From Bolinopsis microptera (Eukaryota > Ctenophora > Tentaculata > Lobata > Bolinopsidae), in NCBI RefSeq assembly GCF_026151205.1, contig NC_087075.1, forward strand, positions 13,405,628-13,469,627: a DNA stretch of 64,000 nt, read 5' to 3'. The notes under the pieces were generated by a model, which did no database searches, was not told the DNA's origin, and was given only the letters and a program-made list of their open reading frames with translations. Shown here one piece after another: positions 11,201-64,000 of this stretch (positions are counted from its first letter, which is position 1; the number at the start of each line of letters is the position of its first letter). Position numbers and translations under genes: made by a program.

Positions 11201-14200
11201 AACAAAAGAAAAAGTCAAAGCAGCATCTTCTGATATCAAATTTGCCTGCCGGCTGCCAATCAACTGTGAAACAATGTTTGCAGGCTTTTTAAAGAACAAA
11301 TTTTATAAAATCCAAGTCTCAAGAGTAAGAATAAACTTCTTGTTTGCTCAGCCTTGCTTTTGTAAGCAAACATGTTCTTCTGATAAGTATTTGTTTTACA
11401 TGTATTTTACATGTATTTTATATTAAACAGTAATAACCATCCTAGTCAACTATCGATAAACCATGCCTATTACTTTCCCTAACTAATACTACAGAGTATT
11501 TCTACCTTCCTCTTGAAGTTCGGTAAATAGGGGTTTGACAATGTAATAATTGATTTCACATCTTAAAACTTATCCAGTGATGGAGGAAACAACAGTTGTT
11601 ATCAAGATAAAAGAAGGGGACCCACTACTTGTCTCGAAACAAAGACTTACATCTGACAGTCGTATATTCAGAAACCTTATTGATGAGTGCAATTTTGAGG
11701 AGATTGACATGAGCGACTTTTCAACTGCAGCGGTAACTTTGTTCTTGACCATTCTGGAAGACAAAAATCTTGGCGAGATAAGAAATGATATGTTCAGAGA
11801 ACTTCACAAGATGGCGGTTGTCTTTGAAGTTATGTGGCTGAAAAACGACTGCCACAGATGGTTACGAAGCAAAATGAGCTTGGCAACAGAAGATCATGTC
11901 AAGTCATTCTTATTTGATGAGTGTTGGTATATGCTGCAAAAATGGGAAGACAGAGATGCAATGGACGCCCTGATTTCATGTCTCTCACCTAAAAACAATT
12001 CATCATTTATCTCCAAGTATATGTCAGACTTGAGGAAACTAGAGCTAAAGCAGATTGATATGATGTTAAAATTAGGTGGAGGGGATTCTGATGTTTTCCT
12101 AAGTGTTATGCTGTACAATCTAGTCCGCAAGAAAGATATGAGCGATAAACTTCAACATCTCCTTCGGAAAATGGATTTAGCATTGTGTTGTGAACGGAAT
12201 GAGAAACTGTATCTCGAAGTTTTTGACACAATATCAAACTTATCGGAAATTTCAAATGCTAATTTGAAGTTTATTTACAACTTGACATCCGGGACTATAA
12301 GAGAAATGAGTTCTAGGAAACGAAAATTAAAACAAGGGACAACGGTGGTGCGTGATTGGAAGAAATATGAAGATTTATTGAATACCTGTAAAACATCGAA
12401 TGATATCATTAAATCTGTAAATGAGGACTGTGTTAAATCAATGTACGAGGTAGTTGACCTACTGCTCAAGGTTTGCCACGTTAAAACACCAAACGAGGAG
12501 GAGAGACAAACATTTATTACCACACTTGAGAACATTTGTACCAATCCCGGCAATAATATGCTTCAAAAGATATCGAAGGAATATCTTGATATCATCACTG
12601 ATGCTGTGGATTATTCTAATCTTGAGCAGTCTGATCAGCTAATAGCTCTGCTAAATGATATAAAGAGTAATGATAAGCTCACCACAAGTCATCAGAGCGT
12701 TATCATAAAACGTGATAAGTACATTATAGTAACAGAAGATAAGGAGAGGAAACACCTGTATACCTTTAAACACCCTGGTACAGGAACCTGCACAGAGACA
12801 GGTAAATGTGGTTTTATCTTGAGAGAAGCTGTGTCAGACAATAAATGGACATTTGAACTGTGTACAGACAGCGAGGATTATACAGACACTGGAGTACATT
12901 TCCACGATATTATCTCCGCACATGACATGTTCATGTATAATACTATGTCAGGACACACAGCTGCTGGTAACAAAGTAACCGTGGTAGGTGCGTGGAAGTG
13001 GCGGGAGATATGGTTACCTGACATTACAGACTGGGTGTTTGTAGAGTGGTCTATAGCTTATAATGTTACTGATTATATGGTTGCTAAATAGGACAAATAC
13101 TAGCATGATCAGTGAAATAAAACGTTACATTGAAAACCTTTGTTTTTAAAAAGATTCACAGGGGGGGGGGGGGGGGGGATTCCAATGGTGAAAAATGGTG
13201 TGAAATGGCAAATGATTTGTATTGTGAATTGAGTATCAAAATTGTAAAATTTCACCATTTTTCACCATTTTTTCGACGAGCATATTTGCCTTCTAGTTTT
13301 AGTTTTGACCTTGTGTTATAATTCTACAACAATATTTGGTTATTATAACTCAGATTTAAACATGTGTTTCGTTATATTTAAAATTTTAGTATATAGGTTT
13401 TAAAATTCAGAAACTCGATTCACCAAAACAATCAATCACCATTTTTCATCAAAACTAGTAAACATGGTGAGAAAGATACATTGGAACTAGTAACTTTTAG
13501 TGAACAATGAACATGGCGAGTGAGGTACATCAAAACTAGTAACTTTTGGTGAACATGGCGAAAATGTTACATCAAAACTAGTAACTTTTGGTGAACATGG
13601 CGAGTAAGGTATATCAAAACTAGTAACTTTTGGTGAACATGGCGAGTAAGGTATATCAAAACTAGTAACTTTTGGTGAACATGGCGAGTAAGGTATATCA
13701 AAACTAGTAACTTTTGGTGAACATAGTGAGTAAGGTATATCAAAACTAGTAACTTTTGGTGAACATAGTGAGTAAGGTACAGGGTGGCCCAAAAGTGACT
13801 ACCCACACGCAACCTCTTAATAACTCACGTAATTCGTCTCCAAATTACGTGAGTTATTAAGAGGTTGCGTGTGGGTAGTCACTTTTGGGCCACCCTGTAC
13901 ATTCAAAATGGTAACTTTTATTTATCATGGCCATCTTGCTATGCGCTTGCTTCTCTCACCGTGCTAGCCCGGCCCTGGGAGGCCACAGAAAACAGAATAT
14001 TTGTATCTGGGAGGAAATTTTAAACTTTCTGGATGTGGGGCCCCGGCCCTACACTGCCGACCATGTCATTATACTTCAATTTGACAAGTCCCATTGGGTA
14101 GAATTTAAATGCAACTGGAGCTTCATTTAGAGCTAGACGCCCCTCTAAATGCCCCTCTTTTAGGTCAAAATGTATGCGCCTCCGAGATACTTTACGCTGT

Positions 14201-14443: not shown

Positions 14444-15046
14444 TTGTAATGATTTTTTAAAAGGTACACATCAAATAGTAATTAGATGAATTTATTGTTT
14501 AATAATTAGTTTTGTTTACAGACCCCCCCTCCCCCTTTTTCTACACCCCTGATTATAGCAGAAATATCAGTCAAACGTAGAACTAATTAAAAAACATTGG
14601 TAAAAATATTGTAATCAAAATGTAAGAATATAATAATATACACTGAGTAACAATGCATCTTCTCCTCAGTTGTTCCCATCCCAATACCAGACGCACCAGT
14701 CACAAAGAGAAGAGGTTTAACACGCAGATCCACACGGTTATCTTTACATCCCTATATAATCAGGAACATTCACGTCAACGAGGAATAATTAGTTAGATAA
14801 TAAGCTATTAATTGGTCAGATGATTATTGGGATTATTTATCATTATATTTTGTGGATTCTGCTTTTGGAATTGAGATGGTGACTCTGAGTTAAGTTGCAG
14901 TTTTCTTGAGAACTTTATTTGAAAGTGTTGAGGTTTCTGGGGGGTAACCAGTTTCATTGGACCACAAAGACGACAATAATGCTAAACAATGCTAAAGATT
15001 TCCAAAGAAGGAGTGGGGGTGAGGAAGGGAGGGGGTGGAAGTGGGG

Positions 15047-16388
15047 GAGGGAGTGGGGGTAAGGGGTGCACTCTAGTGGGGGTGATGGGTGCACTCTAGT
15101 GGGGGTGAGGGGTGCACTCTAGTGGGGGTGAGGGGTGCACTCTAGTGGGGGTGAGGGGTGAACTCTAGTGGGGGTGAGAGGTGCACTCTAGTGGGGGTGA
15201 GGGGTGCACTCTAGTGGGGGTGAGGGGTGAACTCTAGTGGGGGTGAGGGGTGCACTCTAGTGGGGGTGAGGGGTGCACTCTAGTGGGGGTGAGGGGTGCA
15301 CTCTAGTGGGGGTGAGGGGTGAACTCTAGTGGGGGTGAGGGGTGAACTCTAGTGGGGGTGAGAGGTGCACTCTAGTGGGGGTGAGAGGTGCACTCTAGTG
15401 GGGGTGAGGGGTGCACTCTAGTGGGAGTGAGGGGTGCACTCTAGTGGGGGTGAGGGGTGCACTCTAGTGGGGGTGAGGGGTGCACTCTAGTGGGGGTGAG
15501 GGGTGAACTCTAATGGGGGTGACGGGTGCACTCTAGTGGGGGTGAGGGGTGTACTCTAGTGGGGGTGAGGGGTGAACTCTAGTGGGGGTGAGGGGTGCAC
15601 TCTAGTGGGGGTGAGGGGTGCACTCTAGTGGGGGTGAGGGGTGAACTCTAGTGGGGGTGAGGGGTGCACTCTAGTGGGGGTGAGGGGTGAACTCTAGTGG
15701 GGGTGAGAGGTGCACTCTAGTGGGGGTGAGAGGTGCACTTTAGTGGGGGTGAGGGGTGCACTCTAGTGGGGGTGAGGGGTGCGCTCTAGTGGGGGTGAGG
15801 GGTGCGCTCTAGTGGGGGTGAGGGGTGCACTCTAGTGGGGGTGAGGGGTGAACTCTAATGGGGGTGACGGGTGCACTCTAGTGGGGGTGAGGGGTGCGCT
15901 CTAGTGGGGGTGAGGGGTGCACTCTAGTGGGGGTGAGGGGTGCACTCTAGTGGGGGTGAGGGGAGCACTCTAGTGGGGGTGAGGGGTGCACTCTAGTGGG
16001 GGTGAGGGGTGCGCTCTAGTCAGTGGCGTAACGTTGCCTTTTGGTGCCCCTCCCTAAAATTGAACAAATTAGGTGATTTTAGAGAATACGCCGGTAAAAT
16101 CTCTAAAAATGTGTGTATCTAGAGCAAAACGCGCAGTTTTGCTAGTACTTTAGTTAAGTTTTCGAAATTGTCCCACATTCAAACGACGATTTGGCGCCCC
16201 CCTAAGACGGCGCCCCCCTGCACAGCGGGGTCAGCAGGGCCTTTCGTTACGCCACTGGCTCTAGTGGGGGTGAGGGGTGCGCTTTAGTGGGGGTGAGGGG
16301 TGCACTCTAGTGGGGGTGAGGGGTGAACTCTAATGGGGGTGACGGGTGCACTCTAGTGGGGGTGACGGGTGCACTCTAGTGGGGGTGA
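15047..16388. repeat. 23-bp minisatellite, roughly 45-50 copies
   Basis: The unit is close to GGGGGTGAGGGGTGCACTCT plus AGT, with scattered variants (TGAACTCT, TGCGCTCT). The plus strand is strongly G-rich. It is interrupted at 16021-16257 by a hAT-type MITE, showing that the array predates that insertion. Confidence 0.95.
16021..16257. mobile_element. hAT-type MITE inserted in the 23-bp minisatellite
   Basis: The ends CAGTGGCGTAACG and CGTTACGCCACTG are perfect 13-bp inverted repeats. The 8-bp flanks GCTCTAGT (16013-16020 and 16258-16265) are a clean target duplication taken from the minisatellite unit. The body matches the copy at 6038-6295 (for example CGCGCAGTTTTGCTAGTACT). Confidence 0.95.
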
Positions 16389-28063: not shown

Positions 28064-55334
<27,271 letters not shown>

Positions 55335-55960: not shown

Positions 55961-57035
55961 ATCACGTGATCTAAAACAACCAAACAAGTCAGCTCTATAC
56001 TCTAAGGTATAAGGTAGGAGATAGTAGAGCGGGTATTTAATCACTAAATATCTTAAAGGCTAGAGGGGTGGAGTCCGAGGAGGTTAACCCTGTTTAAGGT
56101 TACAGTGCTACTTTTTATTAAAGGTAAACCTCAAACTTTCGCGCGCGATATCTCAGAACGCAAAGTCTGATTTAGATCGGGTTTTTGTTTCTACTTGTTC
56201 CTCCCCAGCAGGACCCCCTCATCTCAACTAGTTTAATTATTCCTGGTAACCCGGCCTACTGTAAAACATTATATAATGTACTCTAATCTAATGTGCAGGT
56301 CACGTGACAGGGTTACTATAATACTAGGCAGGTTAGTTACTACATTATATAACATTAGGTTAGAGTGTACTGAGTTAGAGGACTCACTCCACGTTTCCAC
56401 ACCGTGTTAGTGTGTATTGAGGTTTGAGTGTTGTGTACTAGGGTTAGAGTGTTGTGTTAGACCTAGCTGAGAGCCAATAAGACTGCAGTGAGTTGAATAG
56501 CTGCTGTCAGATCATGTGTACTTTCTTTTTCTCTTAATCACTTTGTAATAGGACGGAAAAGAGGAGAATAACTAACTTATCTATTCTCTGAAGTTATTTA
56601 TACAGTAGCTAGTAAGAACCACTATCCGCTATCTGTTAACTTGTACTGTAAATCTATCTAATCTACAGTTGATGTACATCACACATTACAAGGAATGTTC
56701 CCACGACCACAAACAATACCTTCACATCCCTGGACTCTGATTGGTTAATAGCAGTCACGTGACTTAGATGAGACGTTCTGATTGGCTAATATCTGCTGTT
56801 TAATAAAAACCATTTCCTCTAAAACCACTGCTCTGTAAACACTACCTTTATCTACATTACATATCATATTACACAGTTCCTCTACCTCTACGTGCAAGCC
56901 GTGTGTAAACAAGAGGTGGGGAGTGTCTGCTTAAAGCCAATTAAATTTAAACAATTCTTCGTTCCAATTATATACCTATCCGCTAAGAATTTCCAATTAA
57001 TAAATTAGTATTTAATAATTAATTTGATAATTAGT
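55961..57035. other. Cadherin intron sequence, no gene seen
   Basis: Unique-looking sequence lying between the E-box array and the exon-donor array. Isolated CACGTG sites also occur (55965-55971, 56298-56305 region). No ORF is supported. Confidence 0.4.
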
Positions 57036-57038
57036 AAA

Positions 57039-60000
57039 TAACCTCCATCAGTAGCGAGCACAGTTAGCGAGATAACTTGATAGTCAGTATCAGGCAGAGG
57101 CAGAGCTACAGTTATACAGTATAGTGCCCACTCCCCGTATTATAATTAGTTAATTAGTTAATTAGTTAATTAGTTAATAACCTCCATCAGTAGCGAGCAC
57201 AGTTAGCGAGATAACTTGATAGTCAGTATCAGGCAGAGGCAGAGCTACAGTTATACAGTATAGTGCCCACTCCCCGTATTATAATTAGTTAATTAGTTAA
57301 TTATTTAATTAGTTAATAACCTCCATCAGTAGCGAGCACAGTTAGCGAGATAACTTGATAGTCAGTATCAGGCAGAGGCAGAGCTACAGTTATACAGTAT
57401 AGTGCCCACTCCCCGTATTATAATTAGTTAATTAGTTAATTATTTAATTAGTTAATAACCTCCATCAGTAGCGAGCACAGTTAGCGAGATAACTTGATAG
57501 TCAGTATCAGGCAGAGGCAGAGCTACAGTTATACAGTATAGTGCCCACTCCCCGTATTATAATTAGTTGATTAGTTAATTATTTAATTAGTTAATAACCT
57601 CCATCAGTAGCGAGCACAGTTAGAGAGATAACTTGATAGTCAGTATCAGGCAGAGGCAGAGCTACAGTTATACAGTATAGTGCCCACTCCCCGTATTATA
57701 ATTAGTTAATTAGTTAATTAGATAATTAGTTAATAACCTCCATCAGTAGCGAGCACAGTTAGAGAGATAACTTGATAGTCAGTATCAGGCAGAGGCAGAG
57801 CTACAGTTATACAGTATAATAGTGCCCACTCCCCGTATTATAATTAGTTAATTAGTTAATTAGTTAATTAGTTAATAACCTCCATCAGTAGCGAGCACAG
57901 TTAGAGAGATAACTTGATAGTCAGTATCAGGCAGAGGCAGAGCTACAGTTATACAGTATAATAGTGCCCACTCCCCGTATTATAATTAGTTAATTAGTTA
58001 ATTATTTAATTAGTTAATAACCTCCATCAGTAGCGAGCACAGTTAGAGAGATAACTTGATAGTCGGTATCAGGCAGAGGCAGAGCTACAGTTATACAGTA
58101 TAGTGCCCACTCCCCGTATTATAATTAGTTAATTAGTTAATTAGATAATTAGTTAATAACCTCCATCAGTAGCGAGCACAGTTAGAGAGATAACTTGATA
58201 GTCGGTATCAGGCAGAGGCAGAGCTACAGTTATACAGTATAATAGTGCCCACTCCCCGTATTATAATTAGTTAATTAGTTAATTATTTAATTAGTTAATA
58301 ACCTCCATCAGTAGCGAGCACAGTTAGAGAGATAACTTGATAGTCGGTATCAGGCAGAGGCAGAGCTACAGTTATACAGTATAATAGTGCCCACTCCCCG
58401 TATTATAATTAGTTAATTAGTTAATTATTTAATCAGTTAATAACCTCCATCAGTAGCGAGCACAGTTAGAGAGATAACTTGATAGTCGGTATCAGGCAGA
58501 GGCAGAGCTACAGTTATACAGTATAATAGTGCCCACTCCCCGTATTATAATTAGTTAATTAGTTAATTAGTTAATTAGTTAATAACCTCCATCAGTAGCG
58601 AGCACAGTTAGAGAGATAACTTGATAGTCGGTATCAGGCAGAGGCAGAGCTACAGTTATACAGTATAGTGCCCACTCGACTCCCCGTATTATAATTAGTT
58701 AATTAGTTAATTATTTAATTAGTTAATAACCTCCATCAGTAGCGAGCACAGTTAGAGAGATAACTTGATAGTCAGTATCAGGCAGAGGCAGAGCTACAGT
58801 TATACAGTATAATAGTGCCCACTCCCCGTATTATAATTAGTTGATTAGTTAATTATTTAATTAGTTAATAACCTCCATCAGTAGCGAGCACAGTTAGAGA
58901 GATAACTTGATAGTCAGTATCAGGCAGAGGCAGAGCTACAGTTATACAGTATAGTGCCCACTCCCCGTATTATAATTAGTTAATTAGTTAATTAGTTAAT
59001 TAGTTAATAACCTCCATCAGTAGCGAGCACAGTTAGCGAGATAACTTGATAGTCAGTATCAGGCAGAGGCAGAGCTACAGTTATACAGTATAATAGTGCC
59101 CACTCCCCGTATTATAATTAGTTGATTAGTTAATTATTTAATTAGTTAATAACCTCCATCAGTAGCGAGCACAGTTAGAGAGATAACTTGATAGTCAGTA
59201 TCAGGCAGAGGCAGAGCTACAGTTATACAGTATAATAGTGCCCACTCCCCGTATTATAATTAGTTAATTAGTTAATTATTTAATTAGTTAATAACCTCCA
59301 TCAGTAGCGAGCACAGTTAGAGAGATAACTTGATAGTCAGTATCAGGCAGAGGCAGAGCTACAGTTATAGTGCCCACTCCCCGTATTATAATTAGTTAAT
59401 TAGTTAATTATTTAATTAGTTAATAACCTCCATCAGTAGCGAGCACAGTTAGAGATATAACTTGATAGTCAGTATCAGGCAGAGGCAGAGCTACAGTTAT
59501 ACAGTATAGTGCCCACTCCCCGTATTATAATTAGTTAATTAGTTAATTATTTAATTAGTTAATAACCTCCATCAGTAGCGAGCACAGTTAGAGAGATAAC
59601 TTGATAGTCAGTATCAGGCAGAGGCAGAGCTACAGTTATACAGTATAGTGCCCACTCCCCGTATTATAATTAGTTAATTAGTTAATTATTTAATTAGTTA
59701 ATAACCTCCATCAGTAGCGAGCACAGTTAGAGAGATAACTTGATAGTCAGTATCAGGCAGAGGCAGAGCTACAGTTATACAGTATAATAGTGCCCACTCC
59801 CCGTATTATAATTAGTTAATTAGTTAATTATTTAATTAGTTAATAACCTCCATCAGTAGCGAGCACAGTTAGAGAGATAACTTGATAGTCAGTATCAGGC
59901 AGAGGCAGAGCTACAGTTATAGTGCCCACTCCCCGTATTATAATTAGTTAATTAGTTAATTATTTAATTAGTTAATAACCTCCATCAGTAGCGAGCACAG

Positions 60001-63000
60001 TTAGAGATATAACTTGATAGTCAGTATCAGGCAGAGGCAGAGCTACAGTTATACAGTATAGTGCCCACTCCCCGTATTATAATTAGTTAATTAGTTAATT
60101 ATTTAATTAGTTAATAACCTCCATCAGTAGCGAGCACAGTTAGAGAGATAACTTGATAGTCAGTATCAGGCAGAGGCAGAGCTACAGTTATACAGTATAG
60201 TGCCCACTCCCCGTATTATAATTAGTTAATTAGTTAATTATTTAATTAGTTAATAACCTCCATCAGTAGCGAGCACAGTTAGAGAGATAACTTGATAGTC
60301 GGTATCAGGCAGAGGCAGAGCTACAGTTATACAGTATAGTGCCCACTCCCCGTATTATAATTAGTTAATTAGTTAATTATTTAATTAGTTAATAACCTCC
60401 ATCAGTAGCGAGCACAGTTAGAGAGATAACTTGATAGTCAGTATCAGGCAGAGGCAGAGCTACAGTTATACAGTATAGTGCCCACTCCCCGTATTATAAT
60501 TAGTTAATTAGTTAATTAGTTAATTAGTTAATAACCTCCATCAGTAGCGAGCACAGTTAGAGAGATAACTTGATAGTCGGTATCAGGCAGAGGCAGAGCT
60601 ACAGTTATACAGTGAAAGCAGTATTAATGACATTCTCACTTTTCAGAACTAAGTGCCTAATATAATTAAGATAGAACATCTAAACAGTTTTATTCCTGTT
60701 CCATATGATCGAGGATAGTCAGGGCTACAAAACCTGACCAAGTTTAGCTCAATCCAGTACTGCGCGTTCAAGATATGAGGTTAAATATACCAAAAATAAA
60801 GGTTTTCTGGTGTGACATCATTGTAAATTATTTGGAGTATAACCTCAATATCTCACAAACTATACATTTGTGGTCTTTCTGAGTTACACTATCTGTTTCC
60901 TTTGGCAATTTCGGTTCAGAGTCAATTAAGTTTGAAACAAAATCTCAGTATATGTGAAAGGACTGAGGATATCAAGTTTGTAAAAGCGCGCGCGCGCGCG
61001 CGCGCGCACACATATAATAACCTCATATCTTCCACATTTAACGATTTTTTATAGAAATTCTTTCACCATCCTGTAGCACTCATGTGCTGAGTAGGATAGC
61101 ATTCAAATCATGTCTTTAAAAGATTTAGATAGATACTGAGGGAGAAAATTCATGTTTGTAAAAGCGCGCGCGCGCGCGCGCGCGCATGGCCCAGACTATA
61201 TCAATGGACGGCCACGGAAGGATAAAAGTACTTTCATACACACCAGCATGCTCATTGATGGCTTAAAATGAAGCTAAGACATACTCCTATCAGATCCACC
61301 ATAAGTTAGATACCATAATAATCATTAAATGTGTCTAAAATGAGGAAGCTTTGACAAGTGCGAGTGGTTTTGGCAAATTTTGGTATAAAATGGGCCCTGA
61401 GATCATATTTTTCTCATTAAAATCACATATATCACGAATATTTATGTGTATTGGGTGTATCCTCATTGGTATCAACCATTTCAATCATCTAGAGCAGCTT
61501 TCCTGATTCTTTATCTCATGAAAATGGGCAAAAAAGCTCATAAATAGTCCAAAATCGGTCATTTTCGCCGCTTTAATAACCTCATTCCTGGCACCCAGAA
61601 CACTTTGGGTACTCAAAACATGATTTTTCGGATACCTCAGACCCCTAACTAGCACATGGAGCCAGAAAGAACAGCATGTAGGGACTTCTAAATTTCCATG
61701 GTTGAGAACCCAATGTCACACTATTCGTTCATTAATCCTGCTTTCACTGGATACAGTATAATAGTGCCCACTCCCCGTATTATAATTAGTTAATTAGTTA
61801 ATTATTTAATTAGTTAATAACCTCCATCAGTAGCGAGCACAGTTAGAGAGATAACTTGATAGTCAGTATCAGGCAGAGCTACAGTTATACAGTATAATAG
61901 TGCCCACTCCCCGTATTATAATTAGTTAATTAGTTAATTATTTAATTAGTTAATAACCTCCATCAGTAGCGAGCACAGTTAGAGAGATAACTTGATAGTC
62001 AGTATCAGGCAGAGGCAGAGCTACAGTTATACAGTATAGTGCCCACTCCCCGTATTATAATTAGTTAATTAGTTAATTATTTAATTAGTTAATAACCTCC
62101 ATCAGTAGCGAGCACAGTTAGAGAGATAACTTGATAGTCAGTATCAGGCAGAGGCAGAGCTACAGTTATACAGTATAATAGTGCCCACTCCCCGTATTAT
62201 AATTAGTTAATTAGTTAATTATTTAATCAGTAAATAACCTCCATCAGTAGCGAGCACAGTTAGCGAGATAACTTGATAGTCAGTATCAGGCAGAGGCAGA
62301 GCTACAGTTATACAGTATAATAGTGCCCACTCCCCGTATTATAATTAGTTAATTAGTTAATTATTTAATTAGTTAATAACCTCCATCAGTAGCGAGCACA
62401 GTTAGAGAGATAACTTGATAGTCAGTATCAGGCAGAGGCAGAGCTACAGTTATACAGTATAATAGTGCCCACTCCCCGTATTATAATTAGTTAATTATTT
62501 AATTATTTAATTAGTTAATAACCTCCATCAGTAGCGAGCACAGTTAGAGAGATAACTTGATAGTCGGTATCAGGCAGAGGCAGAGCTACAGTTATACAGT
62601 ATAATAGTGCCCACTCCCCGTATTATAATTAGTTAATTAGTTAATTATTTAATCAGTAAATAACCTCCATCAGTAGCGAGCACAGTTAGCGAGATAACTT
62701 GATAGTCAGTATCAGGCAGAGGCAGAGCTACAGTTATACAGTATAATAGTGCCCACTCCCCGTATTATAATTAGTTAATTAGTTAATTATTTAATTAGTT
62801 AATAACCTCCATCAGTAGCGAGCACAGTTAGAGAGATAACTTGATAGTCAGTATCAGGCAGAGGCAGAGCTACAGTTATACAGTATAATAGTGCCCACTC
62901 CCCGTATTATAATTAGTTAATTAGTTAATTATTTAATTAGTTAATAACCTCCATCAGTAGCGAGCACAGTTAGAGATATAACTTGATAGTCAGTATCAGG

Positions 63001-64000
63001 CAGAGGCAGAGCTACAGTTATACAGTATAGTGCCCACTCCCCGTATTATAATTAGTTAATTAGTTAATTATTTAATTAGTTAATAACCTCCATCAGTAGC
63101 GAGCACAGTTAGAGAGATAACTTGATAGTCAGTATCAGGCAGAGGCAGAGCTACAGTTATACAGTATAATAGTGCCCACTCCCCGTATTATAATTAGTTA
63201 ATTAGTTAATTATTTAATTAGTTAATAACCTCCATCAGTAGCGAGCACAGTTAGAGAGATAACTTGATAGTCAGTATCAGGCAGAGGCAGAGCTACAGTT
63301 ATAATACAGTATAGTGCCCACTCCCCGTATTATAATTAGTTAATTAGTTAATTAGTTAATTAGTTAATAACCTCCATCAGTAGCGAGCACAGTTAGAGAG
63401 ATAACTTGATAGTCAGTATCAGGCAGAGGCAGAGCTACAGTTATACAGTATAGTGCCCACTCCCCGTATTATAATTAGTTAATTAGTTAATTATTTAATT
63501 AGTTAATAACCTCCATCAGTAGCGAGCACAGTTAGAGAGATAACTTGATAGTCAGTATCAGGCAGAGGCAGAGCTACAGTTATACAGTATAATAGTGCCC
63601 ACTCCCCGTATTATAATTAGTTAATTAGTTAATTAGTTAATTAGTTAATAACCTCCATCAGTAGCGAGCACAGTTAGAGAGATAACTTGATAGTCAGTAT
63701 CAGGCAGAGGCAGAGCTACAGTTATACAGTATAATAGTGCCCACTCCCCGTATTATAATTAGTTAATTAGTTAATTAGTTAATTAGTTAATAACCTCCAT
63801 CAGTAGCGAGCACAGTTAGAGAGATAACTTGATAGTCAGTATCAGGCAGAGGCAGAGCTACAGTTATAGTGCCCACTCCCCGTATTATAATTAGTTAATT
63901 AGTTAATTAGTTAATTAGTTAATAACCTCCATCAGTAGCGAGCACAGTTAGAGAGATAACTTGATAGTCAGTATCAGGCAGAGGCAGAGCTACAGTTATA
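57039..64000 (-). repeat. About 140-bp array of cadherin exon end plus 5' splice site (at least 42 copies)
   Basis: CCTCCATCAGTAGCGAGCAC recurs about every 132-144 bp: 26 times from 57043 to 60534 and 16 times from 61819 to 63925, continuing off the right edge. Read on the minus strand each unit encodes LPLPDTDYQVISLTVLATDG, the C-terminal strand of a cadherin repeat. The donor GGAG/GTTATTAAC and AT-rich intron follow. The frame joins in phase 1 to exon 55334-55165. An AG preceding CTCTGCC would define a 63-nt phase 1-1 core. The two blocks are separated by a TIR element at 60610-61749. Confidence 0.95.
60610..61749. mobile_element. 1.14-kb TIR element inserted in the exon-donor array
   Basis: The ends CAGTGAAAGCAGTATTAATG and the complement of the right end (CAGTGAAAGCAGGATTAATG) are inverted repeats of about 20 bp with one mismatch. 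The interrupted array unit resumes directly at 61751. Target duplication is not clean (ATA on both sides with one extra G). Two (GC)n tracts at 60986 and 61164 each follow GTTTGTAAAA. No transposase is seen. Confidence 0.85.

Follow-up and report, generated by a model that had tools for sequence, protein, structure and literature searches.

A cadherin exon in the genome of the ctenophore Bolinopsis microptera ends in a long tandem array of its own 3' end, its 5' splice site and the beginning of the following intron. We consider it very probable that this array is a mirage minisatellite, in which the outermost donor does the work and the rest is intron. According to two papers on amphioxus (PMC3087553, PMC3902484), mirages are tandem repeats across exon-intron boundaries, found in Adh3, BflGb6, BflGb9 and TnC, with a similar case in PGBD5, and many of them carry AG/GT signals and lie at donors or acceptors. 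The array studied here runs off the edge of the window, the 64,000-nt stretch of DNA that was analysed, overshooting it by 1.5 kb as seen from the sequence of the next 40 kb. Extended coordinates carry the window numbering on into C4:13469628 and beyond, giving 104 kb altogether (Table 1).

Anatomy of the main array

At least 42 tandem copies of a unit of roughly 140 bp had been claimed in the first-pass annotation of this DNA, and the counts agree with it. The motif GATGGAG/GTTATT (slash, exon-intron boundary) has 42 exact minus-strand copies in the window, at 57049-63933, and 53 once the next 40 kb is added, arranged head to tail. The units are mostly 139 or 142 bp, the 41 spacings of the 42 in-window donors being 142 bp (19), 139 bp (16), 132 bp (three), and 136, 144 and 1286 bp (one each); the last contains an insertion of ~1.15 kb with inverted ends. 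In the shortest unit (132 bp) the sequence is IIRGVGTITVALPLPDTDYQVISLTVLATDGG, and that of the true exon at the corresponding place is IHRTTGTITVALPLPDTDYQVISLTVLATDGG, a match indicating that ~75 nt of the unit is exon-derived. The exon end is thus present in the unit as annotated, but it is longer than the last codons assigned to it. After the exon part come the donor and then ~56 nt of AT-rich sequence, made up of the intron start and filler, and the 139- and 142-bp units exceed the 132-bp unit by 7 and 10 nt, located upstream of a candidate AG discussed below. The GT donor, annotated as intact, is indeed kept in all copies, although GTTATT scores as weak by a donor matrix.

The exon at the 5'-most copy is a true cadherin exon. 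It matched a profile built from nine cadherin domains of the same genome (conditional E 3.6e-11), which has 35 cadherin-domain matches in 264.65 Mb; joined to the next exons it matched PF00028 in two stretches (E 5e-24), and two ENA proteins match it with 75-76% identity. P0010 and P0011 stop two residues beyond this exon, and their intron starts differ. A codon-usage exon scan trained on cadherin domains missed some exons and is given a supporting role only. Amplification of a cadherin exon end together with its donor and intron start, as first proposed, is therefore borne out, and the proposed agreement in frame and phase 1 with the exon at 55334 is correct in both acceptor and phase. Because the 5'-most copy belongs to the true exon and the next exon follows in phase 1, the 52 other copies lie inside one 10.1-kb intron. 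The array has these features of a mirage: its unit crosses the exon-intron boundary, with exon end, donor and intron start in 53 copies; the authentic boundary is, by position in the sequence, the outermost copy, the others being intronic; and the splice signals are retained in the copies, all 53 being exact.

Other repeats lie at splice sites of this gene. The acceptor of the main-array exon sits in an array of 16 copies of a 21-bp unit, with 14 exact CCCCAGG, and a repeat at 54558-54800 with periods of 10 and 37 bp adjoins, but does not include, the donor of the following cadherin exon.

Misassembly might have inflated the copy number of the main array, since assembly of long arrays is difficult; for the amphioxus BflGb6 mirage, two haplotypes differ in unit number (6 and 3), and an aberrant draft assembly has been reported (PMC3087553). 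We give this explanation very little credence, because several variants occur in mixed order among the copies, the 1.15-kb element breaks the array, and similar or longer arrays are present elsewhere in the assembly.

Table 1. Positions and features of the arrays and associated exons. Window or extended coordinates unless a contig is named.
Feature	Position	Strand	Basis or remarks
Main donor-site array (probable mirage minisatellite)	57028 to ~65523 (extended); window part 57028..64000	-	TRF and donor counts
True cadherin exon, 202 nt, 5'-most array copy	65450-65651 (extended)	-	VGYEVTQVRARDFDDGIYGAVEYSLDTNTNTVRLFKIHRTTGTITVALPLPDTDYQVISLTVLATDGG; profile match
MITE-like insertion splitting main array	60606..61753	.	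Terminal inverted repeats of 25 nt, 92% complementary
Next cadherin exon	55138..55334	-	Acceptor TTTCAG/GTGGAC, phase 1 with array donors; PF00028 on joined exons; relatives P0007-P0009
Following cadherin exon	54802..54943	-	Repeat at 54558-54800 adjoins its donor
Probable cadherin exon	54448..54535	-	Weak profile match and splice context
Probable cadherin exon	54248..54338	-	Weak profile match and splice context
Exon for transmembrane and juxtamembrane part, taken as same cadherin	30469..30654	-	Homologues P0001-P0006
Second donor-site array, 89 bp x 9	29692..30521	-	Unit of ~50 nt exon end, GTAATT donor and ~39 nt intron
Exon after second array	29314..29404	-	Phase 1 match; P0003 and P0005 continuous across junction
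Donor array, 49 bp x 48	Upstream, extended region		Exon from reading frame and splice context
Donor array, 25 bp x ~70	Upstream, extended region		58 copies with GTAAGATG or GTAATATG; exon from frame and splice context
Donor array, 48 bp x 12	Upstream, extended region		Exon from reading frame and splice context
GNL2-like exon and array pieces	C1:1104400-1105200 and 1108701-1113700
AGGTAAG donor arrays	C1:980934, C1:1105104		2 of 2 among the matches listed
AGGTGAG donor arrays	C1:401054, C1:920915		2 of 5 listed
AGGTGAG acceptor array	C1:2508299		Gene on -
AGGTGAG array ending short of acceptor	C1:1998054		One flank read
TAGGAAG donor arrays	C1:7468258, C3:19211723
TAGGAAG acceptor array	C3:3330009
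TAGGAAG coding repeat	C5:2154468
TAGGAAG arrays adjoining apparent splice site	C1:1431091, C5:19913854		Site outside array

Further arrays in the same region and at other cadherin loci

A second array with the anatomy of the main array lies ~35 kb downstream, at the end of an exon for a transmembrane segment. Six ENA homologues (P0001-P0006) back this exon, which has no Pfam family above cut-off and which we take to be the cadherin tail from its position and its resemblance to such tails. Read-through past its donor gives Gly-Asn-stop. P0001 and P0002 continue for at least 21 residues past the donor of the transmembrane exon, with a different intron start and no copy of the exon there, suggesting that the 89-bp array is not conserved.

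Three further arrays upstream in the extended 104 kb likewise start where an exon-like stretch ends in a donor; their exons gave no Pfam match (three of three tried) and no PDB match (two of two tried). At the cadherin loci C4:12.43 Mb, C4:2.61 Mb and C7:16.05 Mb, only short arrays were found near profile-supported exons, and the splice acceptor was outside the array in both places checked (14996-15108 at C4:2.61 Mb and 13309-13359 at C4:12.43 Mb). When the best donor of each unit was compared with random segments of equal length, p was below 0.05 in four of 39 arrays, which is no clear excess, and the main-array donor scored low.

The window also contains repeats of other kinds. Open frames at 42548-46146 and 1402-2526 resemble the reverse transcriptase and endonuclease of non-LTR retrotransposons, judging by their motifs, and the former includes a 317-bp tandem duplication (44231-44866). 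At 33833-35497 a 391-bp unit is repeated about four times almost without change; the adjoining open frame shows a weak similarity to ankyrin that falls short of the Pfam cut-off.

Splice-site choice within the array

We propose that the array began as a tandem duplication of a segment reaching from the 3' end of the cadherin exon (~75 nt) across the 5' splice site into the early intron, and that it then expanded, probably via unequal exchange, with the intron absorbing the copies. As long as the first donor is used, extra copies would only lengthen the intron. The spliceosome would pick the outermost donor, leaving the remaining donors mostly silent. Because GTTATT is the same in all 53 copies, its own sequence gives the first copy no advantage; the outermost donor may instead be favoured as the only copy with an exon that has its own acceptor upstream, at the right distance. 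Misuse of an internal donor would lead to an immediate stop codon, and translation past the main-array donor reads Gly-Tyr-stop, an in-frame stop after one extra residue. Such arrays may be tolerated because a duplication across one boundary leaves the outermost site functional, unlike an array within an exon, which would alter the protein.

The same properties could be read as signs of regulation, with the internal donors acting as decoys that are bound and sometimes used, yielding a truncated ectodomain or a target for decay, or holding U1 on the long intron. Retention of the donor in every copy and the in-frame stop met at once on read-through are consistent with such a role, as is human IFI6 (6-16), where a minisatellite at an exon end is reported to give several splice donors and mRNA variants, with downstream repeat units acting as donors (PMC4526556). 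We nevertheless judge it very unlikely, as the donor is weak and the transmembrane-exon array is not conserved in P0001 and P0002. Since some downstream IFI6 units are used as donors, limited use of array donors in the cadherin gene is possible.

It is still more improbable that the AG before CTCTGCC is used as an acceptor, which would turn the copies into 63-nt phase 1-1 cassette exons, one or more of them included in some transcripts and each adding 21 residues at the end of a cadherin domain. A 63-nt stretch from CTGTAG to the donor is open in 51 of the 52 extra copies (57 nt in one), and pyrimidines make up 0.35-0.55 of the sequence before the AG, a range overlapping that of 11 presumed-real acceptors (0.40-0.75; one of them probably mis-set). 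The variants among the copies are ACT>ACC, TCT>TCG, ATC>ATA and one 6-nt in-frame deletion, so that three of three substitutions are synonymous (p 0.024, the expected fraction being 0.289; a weak point in favour of the cassettes); the true exon differs from the array cassettes by one further, also synonymous, change. Against use of this AG, a further AG lies 18-28 nt upstream of it, the AG is present within the true exon too, and two other arrays have non-synonymous or frame-shifting variants in their exon part: the 89-bp array has one synonymous and one non-synonymous substitution, with a 7-bp frame-shifting insertion in one copy, and the 48-bp array has two synonymous and four non-synonymous substitutions, not counting a change in one copy at the final base of the exon. 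Over the three arrays together, 6 of 11 substitutions are synonymous (p 0.037, computed post hoc), pointing at most to weak coding constraint in the copies. The ideas of cassette exons, decoys and recursive splicing, raised in the first-pass annotation, have the sites themselves as their positive support.

Relation to described systems

The first-pass annotation knew of no described system of this kind, a statement overturned by the published amphioxus mirages (PMC3087553, PMC3902484) and human IFI6 (PMC4526556). Like the amphioxus mirages, the arrays described here are repeats across an exon-intron boundary, on the donor or the acceptor side, with splice signals; they differ in size, BflGb6 having 6 and 3 units as against 9 to ~164 copies here, and in being found in several genes of one small sample. 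The amphioxus papers report Adh3 data and globin RT-PCR suggesting that mirages leave regular splicing undisturbed (PMC3087553, PMC3902484), and mirages were proposed there as a source of new introns (PMC3087553). With IFI6 the cadherin array shares an exon-end minisatellite supplying donors; downstream units are reported as used in IFI6, whereas those here are candidate donors by sequence. Intron gain by tandem duplication of an AGGT segment is alike in the duplication across splice signals, but here an existing intron is enlarged.

In the open-licence literature, seen in part, there was no related report on ctenophore minisatellites, and on duplicated or tandem donors only GYNGYN donors were covered; the portions seen of PMC12221973, PMC2206037 and PMC2915984 contain nothing about mirages except one citation of the IFI6 paper. 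Relative to that literature the kind of repeat is known; what looks new is how many copies there are and how common such arrays appear to be in a single genome.

Boundary arrays across the genome

Tandem triples of the donor words AGGTAAG and AGGTGAG have 3430 and 3936 matches genome-wide, compared with 96, 1671, 718 and 252 for the control words GAATGGA, GAGTGGA, TAGGAAG and GAAGGAT, an excess counted in matches, which are dominated by long arrays, and not in arrays. The genome appears to be rich in tandem repeats, which make up 1.6, 12, 21 and 74% of four 10-kb pieces taken at round coordinates, so that frequent random matches to a 7-mer are possible. In the 74% piece (C6:5000001-5010000), one 16-bp CT-rich unit builds two arrays of 3.1 kb each, whose flanks are nearly identical. 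For the ctenophore Hormiphora, the genome report gives 13% tandem repeat by TRF (PMC8527503).

Any excess of arrays at splice sites over chance is judged from a small, non-random sample, the first 19 places in contig order among the matches listed, of which 17 were resolved; an irregular place (C5:11005705) and one running beyond the stretch read (C1:2056554) were left out. An apparent exon boundary is spanned by 8 of the 17 arrays resolved among these matches. For TAGGAAG alone, a word without splice meaning (12 places listed, 11 read), the figure is 3 of 11 among the matches listed, and no exon was seen at five of the 11 array places read. Many donor boundaries and some acceptor boundaries across the genome appear to carry such arrays. 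That splice sites are hot spots, where a splicing- or transcription-linked mechanism generates minisatellites in thousands of introns, we regard as unlikely.

Two of the eight boundary-array exons are firm, namely those of GNL2 (PDB, E 4.2e-14) and RTCB (Pfam, E 6.8e-24), the latter with an acceptor array. Matches below the Pfam cut-offs were to copine (1.5e-4), RhoGEF (6.5e-4; no PDB match) and Sushi (0.024). One exon, which looks like ABHD17, and two others gave no Pfam match, and one of these no PDB match either. Near the place left out on C1, at C1:2055700-2056600, the end of an exon resembling DDRGK1 (Pfam DDRGK, E 6.5e-10) is repeated together with its donor at 135 bp in at least 5 copies; a 47-bp array extending over more than 3 kb adjoins them.

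In the most striking case, the GNL2-like exon (GNL2 region C1:1104951-1111530) is followed by a 6.2-kb run of ~164 copies, estimated by span, of a 38-bp unit with AAG/GTAAGG; in the two pieces read, 6 and 61 donors were counted, the stretch between being seen through word-match rows. On its other side the exon has an 8-copy acceptor array, and the exon downstream of the donor array is GVVRLEYVTNAADYIETIMEKIKPKYLTQAYKV. Past the first donor, the reading frame stays open for nine codons before a stop. Genes including an adhesion receptor and a GNL2-like ribosome-assembly GTPase would present dozens of near-identical successive 5' splice sites of which one has to be chosen. As the animal seems to carry many such arrays, it offers a natural test of splice-site choice, which would show whether position alone, as the outermost copy by a defined exon, sets the choice, and whether arrays contribute to the growth of introns or to the origin of new ones.

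At the TAGGAAG coding repeat, C5:2153700-2154560 has a 36-bp coding repeat in which a signal-peptide-like start is followed by tandem QPPGLGRRSAEP, resembling an amidated neuropeptide precursor.
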